A stretch of 64,000 nucleotides of DNA from Geminocystis sp. NIES-3709 (GTDB taxonomy: Bacteria; Cyanobacteriota; Cyanobacteriia; Cyanobacteriales; Cyanobacteriaceae), in the NCBI RefSeq assembly GCF_001548115.1, contig NZ_AP014821.1, forward strand, positions 620,001 through 684,000, read 5' to 3'. Position 1 is the first letter of the stretch. Each line of letters starts with the position of its first letter. The notes beneath the pieces are model-generated. The model ran no database searches and had not been told where the DNA came from. It saw nothing but the letters and a program-made list of their open reading frames with translations. A program made the translations under genes and the position numbers. Below are positions 48,935 to 54,555 of the stretch, piece by piece.

Positions 48935-49990
48935 TTATGAAAAGTAACCATTATTGAGATATGAACTATAGTTAAGTTGATTGGTGTTAATATTGTGAAC
49001 AATTCCTAATAAATCATCGGCACTATCATAACGATTAGAGTAGTTGCCAGTGTCATGATAAATATAAGTATCTGAACCCATTTGTGTTAAAAGATGTTTT
49101 CTGCTTAAATTCTCAATCACTATCGTATCTATTTGATCTTCAAAATCTTCGATGATAAAATGACCATAATTACTATTTTGAGCAATAGTATAAATAAACC
49201 TGTCAGCTTCTGTACCACCTCTGAGTCGATCGATACCAGAACCTCCCATTAATATATCCCGTCCACTACCACCTGAAAGATAGTCGTTGCCGTATCCTCC
49301 TAAAAGGGTATCGTTTCCTGCATCTCCAATGATCAAATCATCATCTTTATTTCCGTTTAACCACTCAATACCTTCTCCTCCTCCTTCTAACCAATCATTT
49401 CCTTCTCCTCCTTCTAACCAATCATTTCCGTTTCCTGCATAGATTCGATCGTTCCCAAAACCGCCCAAAATAAAATCATCATCACTAATAGTGAATCCAG
49501 CAGTATAAAAAATTCCACCGTATAAGGTATCATCACCTAAACCACCATCAATAAAATCATCTCCCTCATTTCCCTCTATATAATCACTTTCATTCCCACC
49601 GTATAAAAAATCATCCCCTTCATTGCCTTGTATTTTGTCTGAACCACTATCTCCATAGATAAAATCATTTCCTGTACCACCACTTATATTATCTGTTCTA
49701 TCTCCGCCTTTGATGGTATCATTCCCACTTTGTCCATATAACCAATCCATGTCTGAATTTCCGTCGATGACATCGTTTCCTTCTCCACCGTAGATAGTGT
49801 CCATTCCTTCTCCACCATCGACATAATCATTCCCATTTCTGGCTAATATCAAGTCATTTCCATTGTACCCTTGTATATTATCTCGATCATTTGTGCCGAT
49901 TAATTCGTCATTTTCGATCGTACCATCGATAAAATTAACATAAAGAGTAATAGGAGGTAATAGATCTAAATTTAAGGTTGAATTAAACAT
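48935..49990 (-). CDS. RTX (hemolysin-type calcium-binding) repeat protein
   Basis: A 351-residue protein almost entirely made of GGXGXDXUX nonapeptides (EGNDVIDG, GGTGNDFIYG, GNEGDDFLYGG, GGYGNDYLSGG and others), from about residue 22 to 265. These form a calcium-binding beta-roll. A C-terminal region of about 80 residues, rich in Asp/Tyr/Asn (DRFIYTIAQNSNYGHFIIEDF), resembles the secretion-signal end of type I secreted proteins. No enzymatic domain or type I export genes are present in the window. It may be a surface or extracellular protein. Confidence 0.88.
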   Translation of the reverse strand: MFNSTLNLDLLPPITLYVNFIDGTIENDELIGTNDRDNIQGYNGNDLILARNGNDYVDGGEGMDTIYGGEGNDVIDGNSDMDWLYGQSGNDTIKGGDRTDNISGGTGNDFIYGDSGSDKIQGNEGDDFLYGGNESDYIEGNEGDDFIDGGLGDDTLYGGIFYTAGFTISDDDFILGGFGNDRIYAGNGNDWLEGGEGNDWLEGGGEGIEWLNGNKDDDLIIGDAGNDTLLGGYGNDYLSGGSGRDILMGGSGIDRLRGGTEADRFIYTIAQNSNYGHFIIEDFEDQIDTIVIENLSRKHLLTQMGSDTYIYHDTGNYSNRYDSADDLLGIVHNINTNQLNYSSYLNNGYFS

Positions 49991-50086: not shown

Positions 50087-53000
50087 TTACATTTTTTCAC
50101 GACATTTTTTTGCTTCCTCTAAATATCCTCCTTTTTCATAATATTTAATGGCAGTTTCAAAATCTTCCATCTTAAGACAAGCAGAAGCCGCTCTATCCCA
50201 TTTTTCCAAATATTGCCATAATTGAGCAACTTCTTCCCATTTTTCCTGATATTCACAGACGATCGCCAACTTTTCCCAACTGGATATTTTCCGCCAACAA
50301 TCTTCTGCTTTATCCCACTCTTGTGCTTTTTCGTAACAAATACCAGCCCTTTCTATTTCATTAACTAATAACCATGCTTTTGCCGCATCTGTCCATTTTT
50401 GTTGATGTTCGCAAACGATCGCAACTTTTTCCCATTTCCAGAGTTTACGCCAACATTCCTCTGCATTACTCAAATCTTCGGCTTTTTCATAACACAATCC
50501 TGCTTTTTCGCCTTTATTTGCTCGTAAATAAGCAGATGCCGCTAATTGCCATTGTTGTAACTGTTCACAAGCATTACCATATTTTTCCCAATTTTGTGAT
50601 TTCTGCCAATATTTAGCCGCTCTTTCCCAATCTTGACAGTTTTCATAGCATAGTGCCGCTTTTTCTATTTGATTCGACTTTAACCAATCATAAGCTGCTT
50701 TTTGCCATGTTCCTTGTTGTTTACAAGCATTTTCCACTCGTTCCCAATTTTCTAGTTTTTGCCAACAATCTTCTGCTAATCGCCAGTGTTTCCCTTCTTC
50801 ATAGCAAAGGGCGGCTTTTTCTATCTCTCCTAATTTTTCCCGACAATGCCCTGCTTTTTGCCATTCTCCTAATTTTTCCCAAATTTCAGCAGATTCTGTC
50901 CATTTTTCCTGTTTTTCCAACACTTTTGCCGTTCGATCGCTTCTTTGTAACTCCCGCCAACATTTTTCTGCTAATTGCCAATATTGTCCTTCTTCATAAC
51001 ACAAACCTGCTTTTTCAATTTCACGAATTTTCTCCCACGCTACTCCTGCCTTTTGCCATTCTCCTAAATTTTCCCAACTTTCAGCCGCTTCTTGCCATTT
51101 CTCTTGTTTTTCACAGGCTAAAATAATTCTTGTCCAGTTTTTCGCCGCTAACCAACATTTTTCGGCCTTATCCCATGCTTGGCACTGTTCATGACATAAT
51201 GCTTCTAACTCGTGAGGATTGGTTTTACTCCATGCCTGAGCGGCTTCTGTCCACTTATTTTGCTGTTGTAAACAAATAGCAACAAATCCCCAATAACCTA
51301 ACTCTTGCCATATATTTTCTGCTTTATGCCATTGATTTGCTTTTTGATAACACAGGGCAGCTTTTTCCGTTTCAGTGATTTTTAACCATGTTTTGGCGGC
51401 TAAATCCCAATTTTCTTCTTGTTCATAGGATAACGCCAATTCTTGCCAATTTCCTAATTCTTCCCAACATTTTTGGGCAGCAGTCCATTTTTCTGCTTTT
51501 TGCCAACAGAAAGCCGCTTTCTGCACATTGCCTTGTTTTTGCCAACAATTACCGGCTTTTTCCCACTGTTGTAAATCTTCCCAAATAATTGCTACTCGAT
51601 CCCATTTATCTAGTTTTGTCCACATTTTGATAGCAGAGGTAGCTTGATCATGTTCTCGATAATATTTATCTGCTAATTCATAATATTTATTTGCTTGTGA
51701 AGTTAAGTTTTTAGCAATACATTCGTCTCCGGCTAATTCCCATTGATGATCTTTTTCTAAACATCTTAATTTTCCCTCAAAATCTTTTGCTTTTTCATAA
51801 CAAAATTTTGCTAATTTATAGTCTTTTTCTTGTTCAAAATAAAGTCCTCTTATTTGCCATTCTTCTGTTTTTAAAACGCCCCATTTGGCTAACCACAATT
51901 TTTTATCTACTTCATTCCAACAATTAATTGCTTCATCAAAAATGCCTAATTTACTCCAAATATCTCCTGCTTTACCCCAATTTCCTTGTTCTTCTTCTAA
52001 TAATGCTTCTACTTTAGCTGCACCTATTACATCATTATAACGCTGATATATTTGACTAATTATTTGATAGGCTTGATCAGTACCTTTTTTTAAATAGTTA
52101 TTAGCAATAATTTTTATTTCTATTTCTGAATATTTAGTATCAAATAGTGATTCTAACTCTGTTTCATATCCAATATCTATCAAATTATTGATACTGCTAT
52201 CACTCCAAATATTATCGATCGAATCATCATAAAAATATAGTTTTTTCTTAGCTATATTTGTGCAGGTATAAATATGGTTATATTTGACATTAATTAATTC
52301 TTGATCCTCTAAACTATTACGATAGAGTTGAGAAATTTTAGTGAACATTTTCCAAACTAAAACCTGTTCAAATTCTAAATTTTCAATCTCTGAAAAATGT
52401 ATAATCCTATGGGTATCATTAGGAAAAATACTGTTTAATCTATTTCTTTCTTCTTCTTCAAAGACTACGATCGCACTATCAATATTAAGATAATTTTTAC
52501 TCATTAAAAATTCCAATGTTAAATCGGAAATAATTAAAGGTTTATAATCAGATTTATATAATGAAAAATGATGAAGATTTTTTCCTGATAAATTTGCAAT
52601 CGTAACTCCTAATTTAGAAATATTATCACAATAGCTAAAATTATAGGTTAACTCATGAGGTTCAATTAATTCTCGAATTTGTTTCCAAGTAGATAATTTA
52701 TGATAATTTTCTACCAATATTTTTTTTATTCTACTCCAAATTAAATTTTTACTATTTAAACTAACTTCATTTTCACCGACTAAAAATATTTGAGGAAAAT
52801 AATTATTTGCATCAGTAACTTTTAATAATTTAAGAATAAATTGTAATTGTAACTCACTAAATTTATTAATACCATCAATATAAATCCCCTCATATTCTCC
52901 TTGATAATTATCGGGAAACTTACTTAATAAATAGTTTGTTAAATCTAAATCATCCCAATAATTTTGTGATTCTAACCAATCTTGATATTGAGTAGCAAAA

Positions 53001-54016
53001 TTATAAATAGCTTTAAAGTCTATCGTAGGATTTAATAGGCTTTGATTTTTTAAAGCTAAATATTCCTCCAAACTAATTAAACTTTTTCCACTGCCAATAA
53101 TTTTATTTGAACCTTTAATAATTTGTCGAATTTCTTGCCATAAATCCTCAGCTTTAAGTGTAAATATTTTCTTTGGATTAAAAAATTGTTCTCTGAATTT
53201 ATATAAAGTTACTTGTCTTTGAGCCAAAAATTTATAAGTAAAAATTAAAGGATATTTTTCAATAATACTTTTAGTTAAACTAATATAATGATAAACATTT
53301 ATCGGATCACTGAAACTATATTGATTAATAATTTTTTTAGTTTCTTTTACTGAAAATTTATTGTCTGTTAAAAATAAAACTTTTTCCTCTTTTGTTGTGC
53401 TTAAAAAATGGGCTTTGTTTAAAGCTGAGTATATTGCGATCGTAGTTTTTCCCGTCATTCTATTACCAGTAATAAGTGCAGGAAAGTTAGGATTTTGATT
53501 TAAAATATTATACTGTTGTCCTGATACTAAATAAAATTCTTCAGATGTATTGTATTTTGAAGTATGAACAATGAAATCATTATCATTGTAAGTAAAATCT
53601 TGATGATTAAACTGATAATTATTTTCAGCTAAAATACTAATTCTTTCATCTTCTTTTTCTAAAGTTATTTTATTTAAAATATCTAAAGTTTCTATAACAG
53701 TGTCTATATTATTTTTAATAGTTAATAAATTATTTGATTTTGATTCTACATTAGTAAAATTAATTATTTTCAATAAAATCTGATTATTTTGACTATTACT
53801 TAACAATACTAAAGCCTCTAAAGAGTTATCATAAGGAAAACTTGTTATTACTTTAGGATTCTTCACTAACATTGAAGATAATTTATTATTTAAGTCAATA
53901 TCAGCTAATATTAGATAAAAATTTTTTAAGAAAGTAGTGCGCACTTCTAGCGGTAGTATATTTAATTTTGACCAAATGTCAAAGGAAACAGATACAACAA
54001 ATTCTGTAGAAGCCAT
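50087..54016 (-). CDS. Degenerate SF1 helicase-like protein with a 13-residue Trp/Cys tandem-repeat array
   Basis: A 1309-residue protein. Residues about 175-600 show the UvrD/TRANK1-type SF1 helicase layout: Walker A GNRMTGKT (184-191), NYWDDLDLTNYLLS (353-365), a Walker B site reading IYIDG where DE is expected (D381-G382), FLVGEN (411-416) for GDxxQ, YNFSY for NYRS (458-462), LEF of motif V (547-549) and YTCTNIAKKKL for motif VI (583-593), with Ile for the Arg finger. Helicase activity therefore looks lost. From 680 to the end are about 48 units of 13 residues (WxxAxxCWxxxxx), 37 in exact register from 805. In the most regular part every fourth unit is alike, giving a 52-residue repeat. 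It is not a TPR, whose period is 34. Function unknown. Confidence 0.8.
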   Translation of the reverse strand: MASTEFVVSVSFDIWSKLNILPLEVRTTFLKNFYLILADIDLNNKLSSMLVKNPKVITSFPYDNSLEALVLLSNSQNNQILLKIINFTNVESKSNNLLTIKNNIDTVIETLDILNKITLEKEDERISILAENNYQFNHQDFTYNDNDFIVHTSKYNTSEEFYLVSGQQYNILNQNPNFPALITGNRMTGKTTIAIYSALNKAHFLSTTKEEKVLFLTDNKFSVKETKKIINQYSFSDPINVYHYISLTKSIIEKYPLIFTYKFLAQRQVTLYKFREQFFNPKKIFTLKAEDLWQEIRQIIKGSNKIIGSGKSLISLEEYLALKNQSLLNPTIDFKAIYNFATQYQDWLESQNYWDDLDLTNYLLSKFPDNYQGEYEGIYIDGINKFSELQLQFILKLLKVTDANNYFPQIFLVGENEVSLNSKNLIWSRIKKILVENYHKLSTWKQIRELIEPHELTYNFSYCDNISKLGVTIANLSGKNLHHFSLYKSDYKPLIISDLTLEFLMSKNYLNIDSAIVVFEEEERNRLNSIFPNDTHRIIHFSEIENLEFEQVLVWKMFTKISQLYRNSLEDQELINVKYNHIYTCTNIAKKKLYFYDDSIDNIWSDSSINNLIDIGYETELESLFDTKYSEIEIKIIANNYLKKGTDQAYQIISQIYQRYNDVIGAAKVEALLEEEQGNWGKAGDIWSKLGIFDEAINCWNEVDKKLWLAKWGVLKTEEWQIRGLYFEQEKDYKLAKFCYEKAKDFEGKLRCLEKDHQWELAGDECIAKNLTSQANKYYELADKYYREHDQATSAIKMWTKLDKWDRVAIIWEDLQQWEKAGNCWQKQGNVQKAAFCWQKAEKWTAAQKCWEELGNWQELALSYEQEENWDLAAKTWLKITETEKAALCYQKANQWHKAENIWQELGYWGFVAICLQQQNKWTEAAQAWSKTNPHELEALCHEQCQAWDKAEKCWLAAKNWTRIILACEKQEKWQEAAESWENLGEWQKAGVAWEKIREIEKAGLCYEEGQYWQLAEKCWRELQRSDRTAKVLEKQEKWTESAEIWEKLGEWQKAGHCREKLGEIEKAALCYEEGKHWRLAEDCWQKLENWERVENACKQQGTWQKAAYDWLKSNQIEKAALCYENCQDWERAAKYWQKSQNWEKYGNACEQLQQWQLAASAYLRANKGEKAGLCYEKAEDLSNAEECWRKLWKWEKVAIVCEHQQKWTDAAKAWLLVNEIERAGICYEKAQEWDKAEDCWRKISSWEKLAIVCEYQEKWEEVAQLWQYLEKWDRAASACLKMEDFETAIKYYEKGGYLEEAKKCREKM
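50090..51604 (-). repeat. In-gene array of 13-codon (39-bp) repeats
   Basis: This part of the gene encodes residues 805-1309, an almost gapless run of 13-residue units. In the last third four different units follow each other in constant order (IEKAALCYE, W..AE.CW, W....I.CE, W..AA..W), so the DNA carries a 156-bp higher-order repeat. Units have diverged enough that this is old rather than a recent expansion. Confidence 0.85.
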
Positions 54017-54111: not shown

Positions 54112-54555
54112 TTAGTTATTATATTCTTCTTGATTAGGCACAATCTCTAACTTCTGTACTGTGTGTCTGTGAATAAGTAAATCTTCCTTAATTTGCTTTA
54201 TTCCCTCACTAATCGCAGTTTTATAATCATGAGTAGAAAAAGTAAATTGTTGGCGTTGGGGTTGATTAATCGTCCATTTTACGGTGTTTTGATGGTGAGT
54301 TACTTTTATACCCTGCTCAATTCCGGCACACTCAGGTACACCGCACCAACAGGTAATGATAAAATATTCTCCATCTTTTACAATACTATTGCTTAATTGT
54401 GTTAATGATGTAGCATAGTAGGAAAAATCTGTGAGAACTTCTCCGTCAACGAAAATCATGGTAACAAAATAAGCATGATCATCATTATCAAAACTATATA
54501 TTTTATTCTGTAACTTTAATTTATTCATTAGAGTAATCGTAGAGTCCCACTTCAT
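54112..54555 (-). CDS. Hypothetical protein with a CWCGVPECAG cysteine motif
   Basis: A 147-residue soluble protein. Residues 63-79 read EYFIITCWCGVPECAG, three cysteines at 69, 71 and 76 that could bind metal. Strands before it contain HAYFVTMIFVDGEVLTDFSYY, and the C-terminus is helical and polar. I recall hypothetical proteins with a similar CGVxxCAGI phrase but cannot name a function. It begins the minus-strand run and lies 95 bp upstream of the large repeat-protein gene. Confidence 0.7.
   Translation of the reverse strand: MKWDSTITLMNKLKLQNKIYSFDNDDHAYFVTMIFVDGEVLTDFSYYATSLTQLSNSIVKDGEYFIITCWCGVPECAGIEQGIKVTHHQNTVKWTINQPQRQQFTFSTHDYKTAISEGIKQIKEDLLIHRHTVQKLEIVPNQEEYNN

Follow-up and report, generated by a model that had tools for sequence, protein, structure and literature searches.

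UvrD, PcrA and Rep, as SF1A helicases, and likewise GajB are active enzymes that possess catalytic Glu and Arg residues. In ArmD of the ARMADA Type II system a helicase of the UvrD family (GajB-like) is fused to a RelE-like N-terminal domain (PMC12458937). That report presents ArmD as one of four ARMADA genes, each of them required for anti-phage defence, and states that the K266A replacement of the Walker A Lys abolishes defence while D454N in Walker B costs only part of it (PMC12458937). A second precedent is SLFN5, the SF1 helicase domain of which has the Walker B Glu changed to Asp and binds ATP, with hydrolysis being undetected (PMC8789055).

The gene analysed here occupies positions 50087–54016 on the minus strand of the window, i.e. 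the whole 64,000-nucleotide stretch of Geminocystis sp. NIES-3709 DNA under study. The open reading frame starts with ATG and encodes 1309 amino acids, in which a degenerate, probably RelE-like domain is followed by a UvrD-like pseudo-helicase and a solenoid of 13-residue units. Compared with ArmD as described, the protein would have the same first two parts by descent, but its gene lacks a recurring neighbour, its catalytic residues are lost and a long 13-residue solenoid is present. No ArmA, ArmB or ArmC was recognised among the window ORFs between 44 and 60 kb. When 14 loci of window-type genes were compared, no neighbour of the window gene recurred beside the orthologues, so the neighbour survey proposed in the initial annotation yielded no operon partner. 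The suggestion made there of an undescribed system is too strong because the RelE-like plus UvrD architecture is already known from ArmD and because no neighbour recurs. The titles and abstract openings of the open literature, searched with our terms, contained no report naming this cyanobacterial protein family.

The pseudo-helicase core, assigned by motifs and by profile and fold matches to the SF1/UvrD-like type, spans residues 160–620 (52157–53539; all features are on the minus strand unless stated otherwise). All the motif readings made earlier were confirmed by the alignment. Walker A GNRMTGKT (residues 184–191, including G184, G189, K190 and T191; 53444–53467) is retained, Walker B has become D381-G382 (52871–52876) with the Asp present and the catalytic Glu absent, and Arg is missing both from motif IV, which reads NFSY (N459 to Y462; 52631–52642), and from motif VI, TNIAKKKLY (T586-N-I588 onwards, residues 586–594; 52235–52261). 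UvrD, PcrA, Rep and GajB are among the profile matches of the core, in contrast to which the window clade lacks their Glu and Arg residues; SLFN5 and SLFN11 match weakly. AlphaFold2 predicts RecA-like domains, so that their absence, considered beforehand as an outcome, is not borne out, and the best fold matches of the core are PcrA, UvrD and Rep. In the Pfam search the window protein matched no UvrD model at E 1 or better, and ADDB_N was found at E 0.0058, below its cut-off. ATP-synthase matches in the PDB search were discarded as short P-loop matches only (E 0.74 or worse).

For the comparison of relatives we distinguish the window-type proteins (S, comprising the window protein and 12 orthologues, 13 in total), a longer sister paralogue (L, 10 proteins), the intact sister copies in genomes of the same family (M) and further relatives (O). 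The named-genome scan retained 80 of 82 confirmed loci; in another step, scoring covered the top two candidates of each genome. Motifs were counted in 110 aligned rows, 23 from the S+L clade and 87 others, after dropping the near-duplicates L077, L079 and L080, hits of ≤130 bits and open frames shorter than 800 aa (including pieces of L041/L078, L065/L082, L144 and L155); Walker A counts omit nine O rows without an aligned Walker A. The G/G/K/T-or-S residues of Walker A (GxxxxGK[TS]) and the Walker B Asp (D381) are present in 23/23 S+L members. The Walker B Glu is found in one of these 23, namely in L040, an orthologue of the window protein that reads DE, versus 87/87 of the other aligned relatives, and the Arg residues of motifs IV and VI occur in 0/23 versus 87/87 each. 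Homologues with intact motifs, which had been expected to indicate a sequence error, do exist, but sequencing error is contradicted because the same losses recur in 12 orthologues, each from a different genome than the window protein (one has Glu). In a tree built on 47 of the 110 rows the 23 proteins form one clade (support 100/99, or 99/97 without the motif columns), and a class-wide search gave seven matches outside the family, all motif-intact (one with Walker A unaligned). According to these alignments, the S+L clade derives from an intact RelE-like + UvrD-like family, and the window protein is no lone oddity.

The N-terminus of the window protein (residues 1–92; 53741–54016) probably descends from a RelE-like domain that is itself degenerate, a feature absent from the initial annotation. 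Its predicted beta-alpha-alpha-alpha-beta-beta-beta order fits RelE, with a strand, helices and antiparallel strands (pLDDT 63–75 for residues 1–90), and a chain of profiles connects S to M (98.3%) and M to O (95.5%). Three Pfam families of the RelE clan weakly match 5/14 O members each, below cut-off; no RelE family was matched by five members of the M-side N-domain alignment in the Pfam search, or by the N-domain profiles in the PDB search. The RelE-type R/R/H residues are present in 3/3 M and in 4/4 O proteins each (four O rows aligned), and in 0/10 L each. In S they are found in 1/13, 0/13 and 0/13, although sequence identity among the aligned S N-domains is low and single-column calls there are less sure. 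The conserved basic residues of the RelE active face thus appear to be lost in the window-type proteins.

The core is followed by a helical junction with looser units, delimited by the matrix scan and AlphaFold2 (residues 621–798; 51623–52156), and by an array of 39 gapless 13-residue units with one predicted helix per unit (residues 799–1305; 50102–51622). The initial count of 48 units with 37 in register was correct as to the existence of the array and needs revision in its numbers: the 13-column matrix finds 45 units, the 39 in perfect register and six looser ones scattered upstream. The matrix score of 863, against 19.9 ± 9.3 in 100 shuffles, comes from a lenient control because the matrix was trained on that very array. 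The untrained measure, lag-13 identity over residues 641–1309, is 0.192 versus 0.080 ± 0.011 for the 200 shuffled controls. Further peaks lie at lags 26, 39 and 52, and the 52-residue super-period noted earlier is real, since lag 52 gives the highest identity (0.292). Trp and Cys make up 8.2% and 4.5% of residues 641–1309. A DNA-level duplication of 195 bp (65 aa, five units) lies within the array (50761–51112, no strand assigned). The period, with peaks at 13, 26, 39 and 52 and a helix every 13 residues, rules out TPR or Sel1 identity, even though Pfam TPR_2 and TPR_1 exceed their cut-offs despite the non-34 period. In the AlphaFold2 model (pLDDT 85, pTM 0.37) residues 601–1309 form 53 helices, of which 39 belong to the gapless stretch; Foldseek TM-scores of the solenoid are low (≤0.27 among the 50 matches listed).

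Conservation in the window-type protein is highest in the solenoid, the length of which is nearly fixed. Among 12 full-length S proteins 192/507 positions are invariant in the array, compared with 71/460 in the helicase core and 2/160 in the N-domain, and the array measures 507 residues in 10 of the 12. The dN/dS ratio, computed on 10 pairs and then on four more, is far below 1 for both helicase core and solenoid (0.05–0.18 from residue 640 to the C-terminal end where dS is unsaturated). The array of the window type exceeds that of the nearest intact relatives in length. The 13-residue unit is nevertheless not confined to the pseudo-helicase: the period, confirmed here, is also clear in 6/6 intact members tested from outside the cyanobacteria, but not in four intact cyanobacterial ones. 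The wider family is of RelE-like + UvrD-like helicases, often with a 13-residue solenoid. Intact relatives mostly match GajB/UvrD models in PADLOC, where the window protein has no match, and 133 plasmid records match an intact relative (114 of them from Shigella or Escherichia; two cyanobacterial ones were opened). Two intact relatives match a phage DNA helicase family (PHROG). A phage origin was rejected, as no relative was confirmed in viral contigs and the window protein has no PHROG match.

Motifs, alignment, AlphaFold2 and fold matches uphold the initial view of an SF1/UvrD-type pseudo-helicase with a predicted ATP-binding site and a long solenoid. We favour, with a probability of roughly 0.58, the reading that this is an ATP-binding, non-hydrolysing double pseudoenzyme which acts as an ATP-gated scaffold or adaptor and not as a motor. 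Both catalytic centres seem to be lost while the ATP pocket and the very regular scaffold are conserved, and the protein is therefore probably an ATP-responsive docking platform rather than a helicase. Sequence and prediction establish where the core descends from, which residues were lost and which retained, the purifying selection and the solenoid fold, and the RelE-like origin of the N-domain is likely. The ancestor would have combined, in one fused chain, a RelE-like RNase domain, a UvrD-like helicase motor that was active and a helical solenoid. One cyanobacterial family would then have lost the nuclease-type residues together with the Walker B Glu and the Arg residues of motifs IV and VI, most simply in a single event preceding the duplication into S and L, and kept the predicted ATP/Mg-binding residues (Walker A, the Walker B Asp and, in S, the Q-motif Gln). 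ATP binding without turnover may set or stabilise how the RecA-like lobes are arranged relative to each other, which could gate the orientation or availability of the solenoid, the presumed working surface that would hold one or more conserved partner proteins. The precedent of ArmD is indirect here because its mutated Walker B residue is the Asp, which the window protein retains.

The conservation of the P-loop could be structural because the P-loop does not stand alone in it: S proteins show no variation at 68 of the 457 columns of the core, and the S+L core, too, is invariant outside the nucleotide site (24 columns overall, among them W293, E295, I296, K301, G302, D355 and D358). Together with the higher conservation of the solenoid, this would suit a plain protein scaffold, with the P-loop retained solely for folding of the RecA-like core and the nucleotide having no role. 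Such a scaffold seems rather unlikely to us, as GxxxxGK[TS] and the Mg-coordinating Asp persist throughout the clade despite its long branches, in contrast to other motif positions of this fold, which drift. The Q-motif Gln, present in 13/13 S proteins, also speaks against it, but is weak support for ATP binding because it occurs in just 5/10 L and 53/75 O rows.

The S-type solenoid is found in 15/15 genomes examined from the host's family, with an open full-length frame in 12 (the window genome included) and an interrupted one in G005 (67% complete). Intact M copies accompany S in three of the 15; L copies occur in 10, with a broken one in an 11th (G011). This co-occurrence might suggest that S regulates as a decoy or in a dominant-negative manner, by pairing with the L paralogue or with an active relative of RelE-like + UvrD-like make-up and holding it in check. 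We regard this as unlikely: M was not found in 12 of these genomes and L in four (one 67% complete), so that neither can be the obligate partner of S. Residual NTPase activity via replaced catalytic residues would agree with the intact Walker A and Walker B Asp, with the Asp or Asn that directly follows the latter in several S+L members, and with the DE of L040. Its chances are nonetheless slim, given that the Glu and both Arg are lost jointly in 22/23 and that no conserved substitute exists, the R461 and R588 positions varying freely and being among the most variable of the S core (entropy percentiles 93 and 98 in 13 S proteins). A decaying pseudogene or sequence error, to which the lost motifs and the broken frames of G005 and G011 might point, is ruled out by the dN/dS values and the presence of the gene in all 15 genomes, full-length and open in 12.

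The ATP-gated scaffold, as we read it, offers an internally controlled case of the transition from helicase to pseudo-helicase, as three of these 15 genomes also carry intact sister copies and the loss of catalytic residues maps most simply to one branch. It also makes the role of ATP binding after the loss of hydrolysis directly testable. The very regular solenoid, with 13 residues per helix, may find use in protein design. Should the intact members serve in defence, as ArmD does, a route from a conflict system to a housekeeping scaffold would be outlined.

Beyond ArmD, several known systems resemble parts of this protein. AddB and RecC are inactivated SF1 helicase folds put to another use, in the RecBCD/AddAB recombination machines; to our knowledge, they have neither a RelE-like domain nor a 13-residue solenoid. 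STAND-type sensors offer an analogy, with a like order of parts (effector domain, NTPase switch, repeat sensor) and an NTPase of another class. The N-terminal fold of Schlafen 5 differs from that of the window protein, and we know of no 13-residue array in Schlafen 5. The likeness to human Schlafen 5 consists in a nuclease-like N-domain joined to an SF1 helicase-like domain with an altered Walker B Glu (PMC8789055), and is an analogy, not membership. IFT-A subunits, clathrin and TPR proteins are helical-hairpin solenoids with weak sequence and fold matches to the array at low TM-scores, the TPR period being 34 as opposed to 13 per helix and 26 per hairpin here. It is possible, though tentative, that one cyanobacterial family has domesticated a RelE-like RNase + helicase of the defence type, turning it into a giant ATP-gated scaffold of the core genome in which both enzymes are off, the array has grown longer and 39 helices of equal pitch hold a fixed set of partners. 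If so, bacteria would have, in its logic, a counterpart to SLFN5 or to scaffolds of the IFT/clathrin type.

The core of the protein descends from UvrD-like helicases. The protein is encoded by a single ORF with an ATG start (50087–54016, minus strand, 1309 aa), in which all the motifs named by the initial annotation were found: GNRMTGKT at residues 184–191, D381-G382, NFSY at 459–462 and TNIAKKKLY at 586–594. The UvrD models of Pfam do not match the window protein alone, while they do match its intact relatives. The proposed profile search against SF1 helicases gave matches of the core to PcrA, UvrD, Rep, GajB, HelD and Schlafen, among others. The proposed structure prediction, an AlphaFold2 model of the first 740 residues (23 sequences; pLDDT 80, pTM 0.80), consists of an N-terminal domain followed by a helicase core and retrieved PcrA, UvrD, Rep and others in Foldseek (TM to query 0.32–0.42 in the top ten).

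The catalytic motifs of this core have been lost. Our motif alignment comprised 110 proteins, which we sorted ourselves, by alignment and tree, into 13 of the window type (S, window included), 10 longer paralogues (L), three intact proteins of the same cyanobacterial family (M) and 84 other relatives (O). The Walker B Glu and the Arg residues of motifs IV and VI are each present in 87/87 M and O proteins, whereas S and L together keep the Glu in 1/23 and each Arg in 0/23. The reading of the protein as a pseudo-helicase with a solenoid was right. The residues for ATP and Mg, i.e., the Walker A Gly, Gly, Lys and Thr/Ser and the Walker B Asp, are retained in 23/23 S and L proteins; nine O rows have no aligned Walker A. 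In S, the two lost Arg positions are freely variable. Of the 457 core columns, the 68 that are invariant in S include P-loop positions, and Thr/Ser191 is nearly invariant, while the Q-motif Gln occurs in 13/13 S, 5/10 L, 3/3 M and 53/75 O. Intact and degenerate proteins share near-invariant positions within core residues 293–302 and 338–358, namely W293, I296, K301, G302, Y344, D355 and D358. S and L form one clade (support 100/99, and 99/97 after removal of all motif columns) with M as its sister (98/97), in trees for which the root was not inferred and in which loci L086, L050 and, in the first tree, L059 were flagged as long branches. The simplest history is a single loss of the catalytic motifs before the S/L split. 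The L paralogue of the window's own genome (locus L007, 4628–9940; contig C1, about 3969650–3974930) has 1771 aa and 76 matched repeat units.

The N-terminal domain, modelled in the order strand-helix-helix-helix-strand-strand-strand, likely descends from a RelE-like domain. Its S and L profiles match the M-side sequences with 98.3% and 97.3% probability, and the latter match O with 95.5%. The O N-termini carry the pattern KKLKG...EAR...R...HDD and weakly match YoeB, Gp49 and HigB of the RelE clan (5/14 members each). Since these matches lie below the curated cut-offs, and since no RelE was found either by PDB profile searches with the N-domain profiles or by Pfam in five M-side members, we grade this ancestry as likely and not as proven. 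In a 30-row alignment, M (3/3) and O (4/4) keep each of the RelE-type residues R, R and H; S retains them in 1/13, 0/13 and 0/13, and L in 0/10 each, having instead N (10/10), E (10/10) and K or R (10/10).

In residues 641–1309 the identity at lag 13 (0.192) exceeds that of 200 shuffles (0.080 ± 0.011), and the highest value falls at lag 52 (0.292), in agreement with the 52-residue super-period described initially. The 13-residue array itself also stood, but not its counts of about 48 units with 37 in register: a 13-column matrix gives 45 units, 39 of them contiguous without a gap (residues 799–1305). The shuffle control of this count is lenient, as this very array served to train the matrix. 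In the nucleotide sequence, Tandem Repeats Finder gives only a 195-bp, five-unit duplication within the array (50761–51112). In the AlphaFold2 model of the C-terminal 709 residues (five sequences; mean pLDDT 85, pTM 0.37, 53 helices) the array helices are mostly of 10 residues with about 3 between them, one per unit and 39 for the 39 units; the solenoid matches IFT-A subunits, clathrin and TPR proteins, but with low TM values (at most 0.27 in the best 50 matches). The matrix counts 41–43 units in four S, 72–76 in four L, 23 and 31 in two M, 24 in L050 and 14 in Pseudanabaena L081, distant members being undercounted by this S-derived matrix. Among 22 proteins tested, the period is clear in six intact non-cyanobacterial members, weak in two Pseudanabaena proteins and absent in four other cyanobacterial members. 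Three of these four, the intact members L068, L102 and L118, have the 34-residue period of ordinary TPR in its place, so one solenoid type has apparently been swapped for the other.

The gene is under selection. Invariant positions in the 12 full-length S proteins amount to 2/160 in the N-domain, 71/460 in the helicase core and 192/507 in the array, whose length is 507 residues in 10/12 and 515 in L042 and L043. For S pairs, dN/dS was 0.09–0.85 (residues 1–150), 0.07–0.46 (160–620) and 0.05–0.18 (640 to the end), rough ranges from the unsaturated pairs among the 10 computed, dS being near or above 1 in many. The same regions gave 0.14–0.30, 0.16–0.21 and 0.14–0.16 in three L pairs, and 0.51, 0.10 and 0.07 in one M pair. 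It is surprising that both catalytic centres were lost, yet the nucleotide site is strictly kept, and that alongside this the solenoid is the best-conserved part of the protein.

Family matches occur in 30 of the 60 genomes compared, the window's own included, and the loci from named genomes (80 kept of 82) are spread over many phyla, including Spirochaetota, Aminicenantes, Acidobacteriota and Thermodesulfobacteriota, with one Heimdallarchaeota genome; viral contigs yielded no confirmed relative. A scan of 388 genomes of the class, in which two candidates from each genome were scored, gave matches with E no higher than 1e-30 in 13 genomes, six in the window's family and seven outside it, the latter all with intact catalytic motifs (Walker A unaligned in one). 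Type M is found in three genomes of the family. The S-type solenoid is present in 15/15 family genomes examined (interrupted in one, cut by contig ends in two), and because of this the gene looks core in its family. The interrupted copies are L041, the S gene of a 67% complete genome (G005), and L062, the L gene of genome G011.

The gene also looks solitary, since none of its neighbours is found again next to other S genes: across 14 S loci, matches to ORFs of the window were limited to the pseudo-helicase gene or its pieces, apart from one distant window ORF weakly matched in two loci. The neighbour listing suggested by the initial annotation thus yielded no partner gene recurring across these loci. 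No neighbour is common to all S loci, though close relatives share some with one another. A kinase-like ORF (~540 aa) lies just upstream on the same strand in three species of one genus (L047 4122–5756, L048 4184–5797, L049 9152–10777), and in L042–L045 an ORF stands head-to-head with the S gene. In the window, the ORF directly downstream (48935–49990) encodes a protein with RTX-type calcium-binding nonapeptide repeats (PF00353, E 1e-50) and contains a 27-bp tandem repeat at 49378–49436, and a 147-aa ORF (54112–54555, same strand) lies 95 bp upstream, has no credible family match and was not seen next to other S genes. Two intact cyanobacterial members (L175, L176) are located on plasmids near partition genes, on Euhalothece pEu1 near a ParB-family gene and an AAA ATPase and on Crinalium pCRI9333.06 near a ParA-family gene and integrases. 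Intact Aminicenantes and Acidobacteriota members (L084, L090, L126, L127, L153, L156) have a common conserved neighbouring ORF, which in L084 has 217 aa and lies just upstream.

The pseudo-helicase may bind ATP without turnover; this binding would position the two lobes and, through them, the solenoid, which in turn would hold partner proteins. Examples of inactive SF1 folds include RecC and AddB. Two described proteins are relevant to this mechanism as precedents. In human SLFN5 the SF1 helicase domain has the Walker B Glu replaced by Asp, ATP shifts the thermal unfolding, and ATP hydrolysis was not detected (PMC8789055). For ArmD, the ARMADA Type II protein joining a RelE-like domain to a UvrD-family helicase, the study states that K266A (Walker A) abolished protection and that D454N (Walker B) caused only a partial loss (PMC12458937). 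The observation from which this analysis started was sound, but the idea of an undescribed system has to be narrowed to a variant of the known RelE-like and UvrD-like fusion with a solenoid, which is not unheard-of; within this architecture, it is the window variant that is new.
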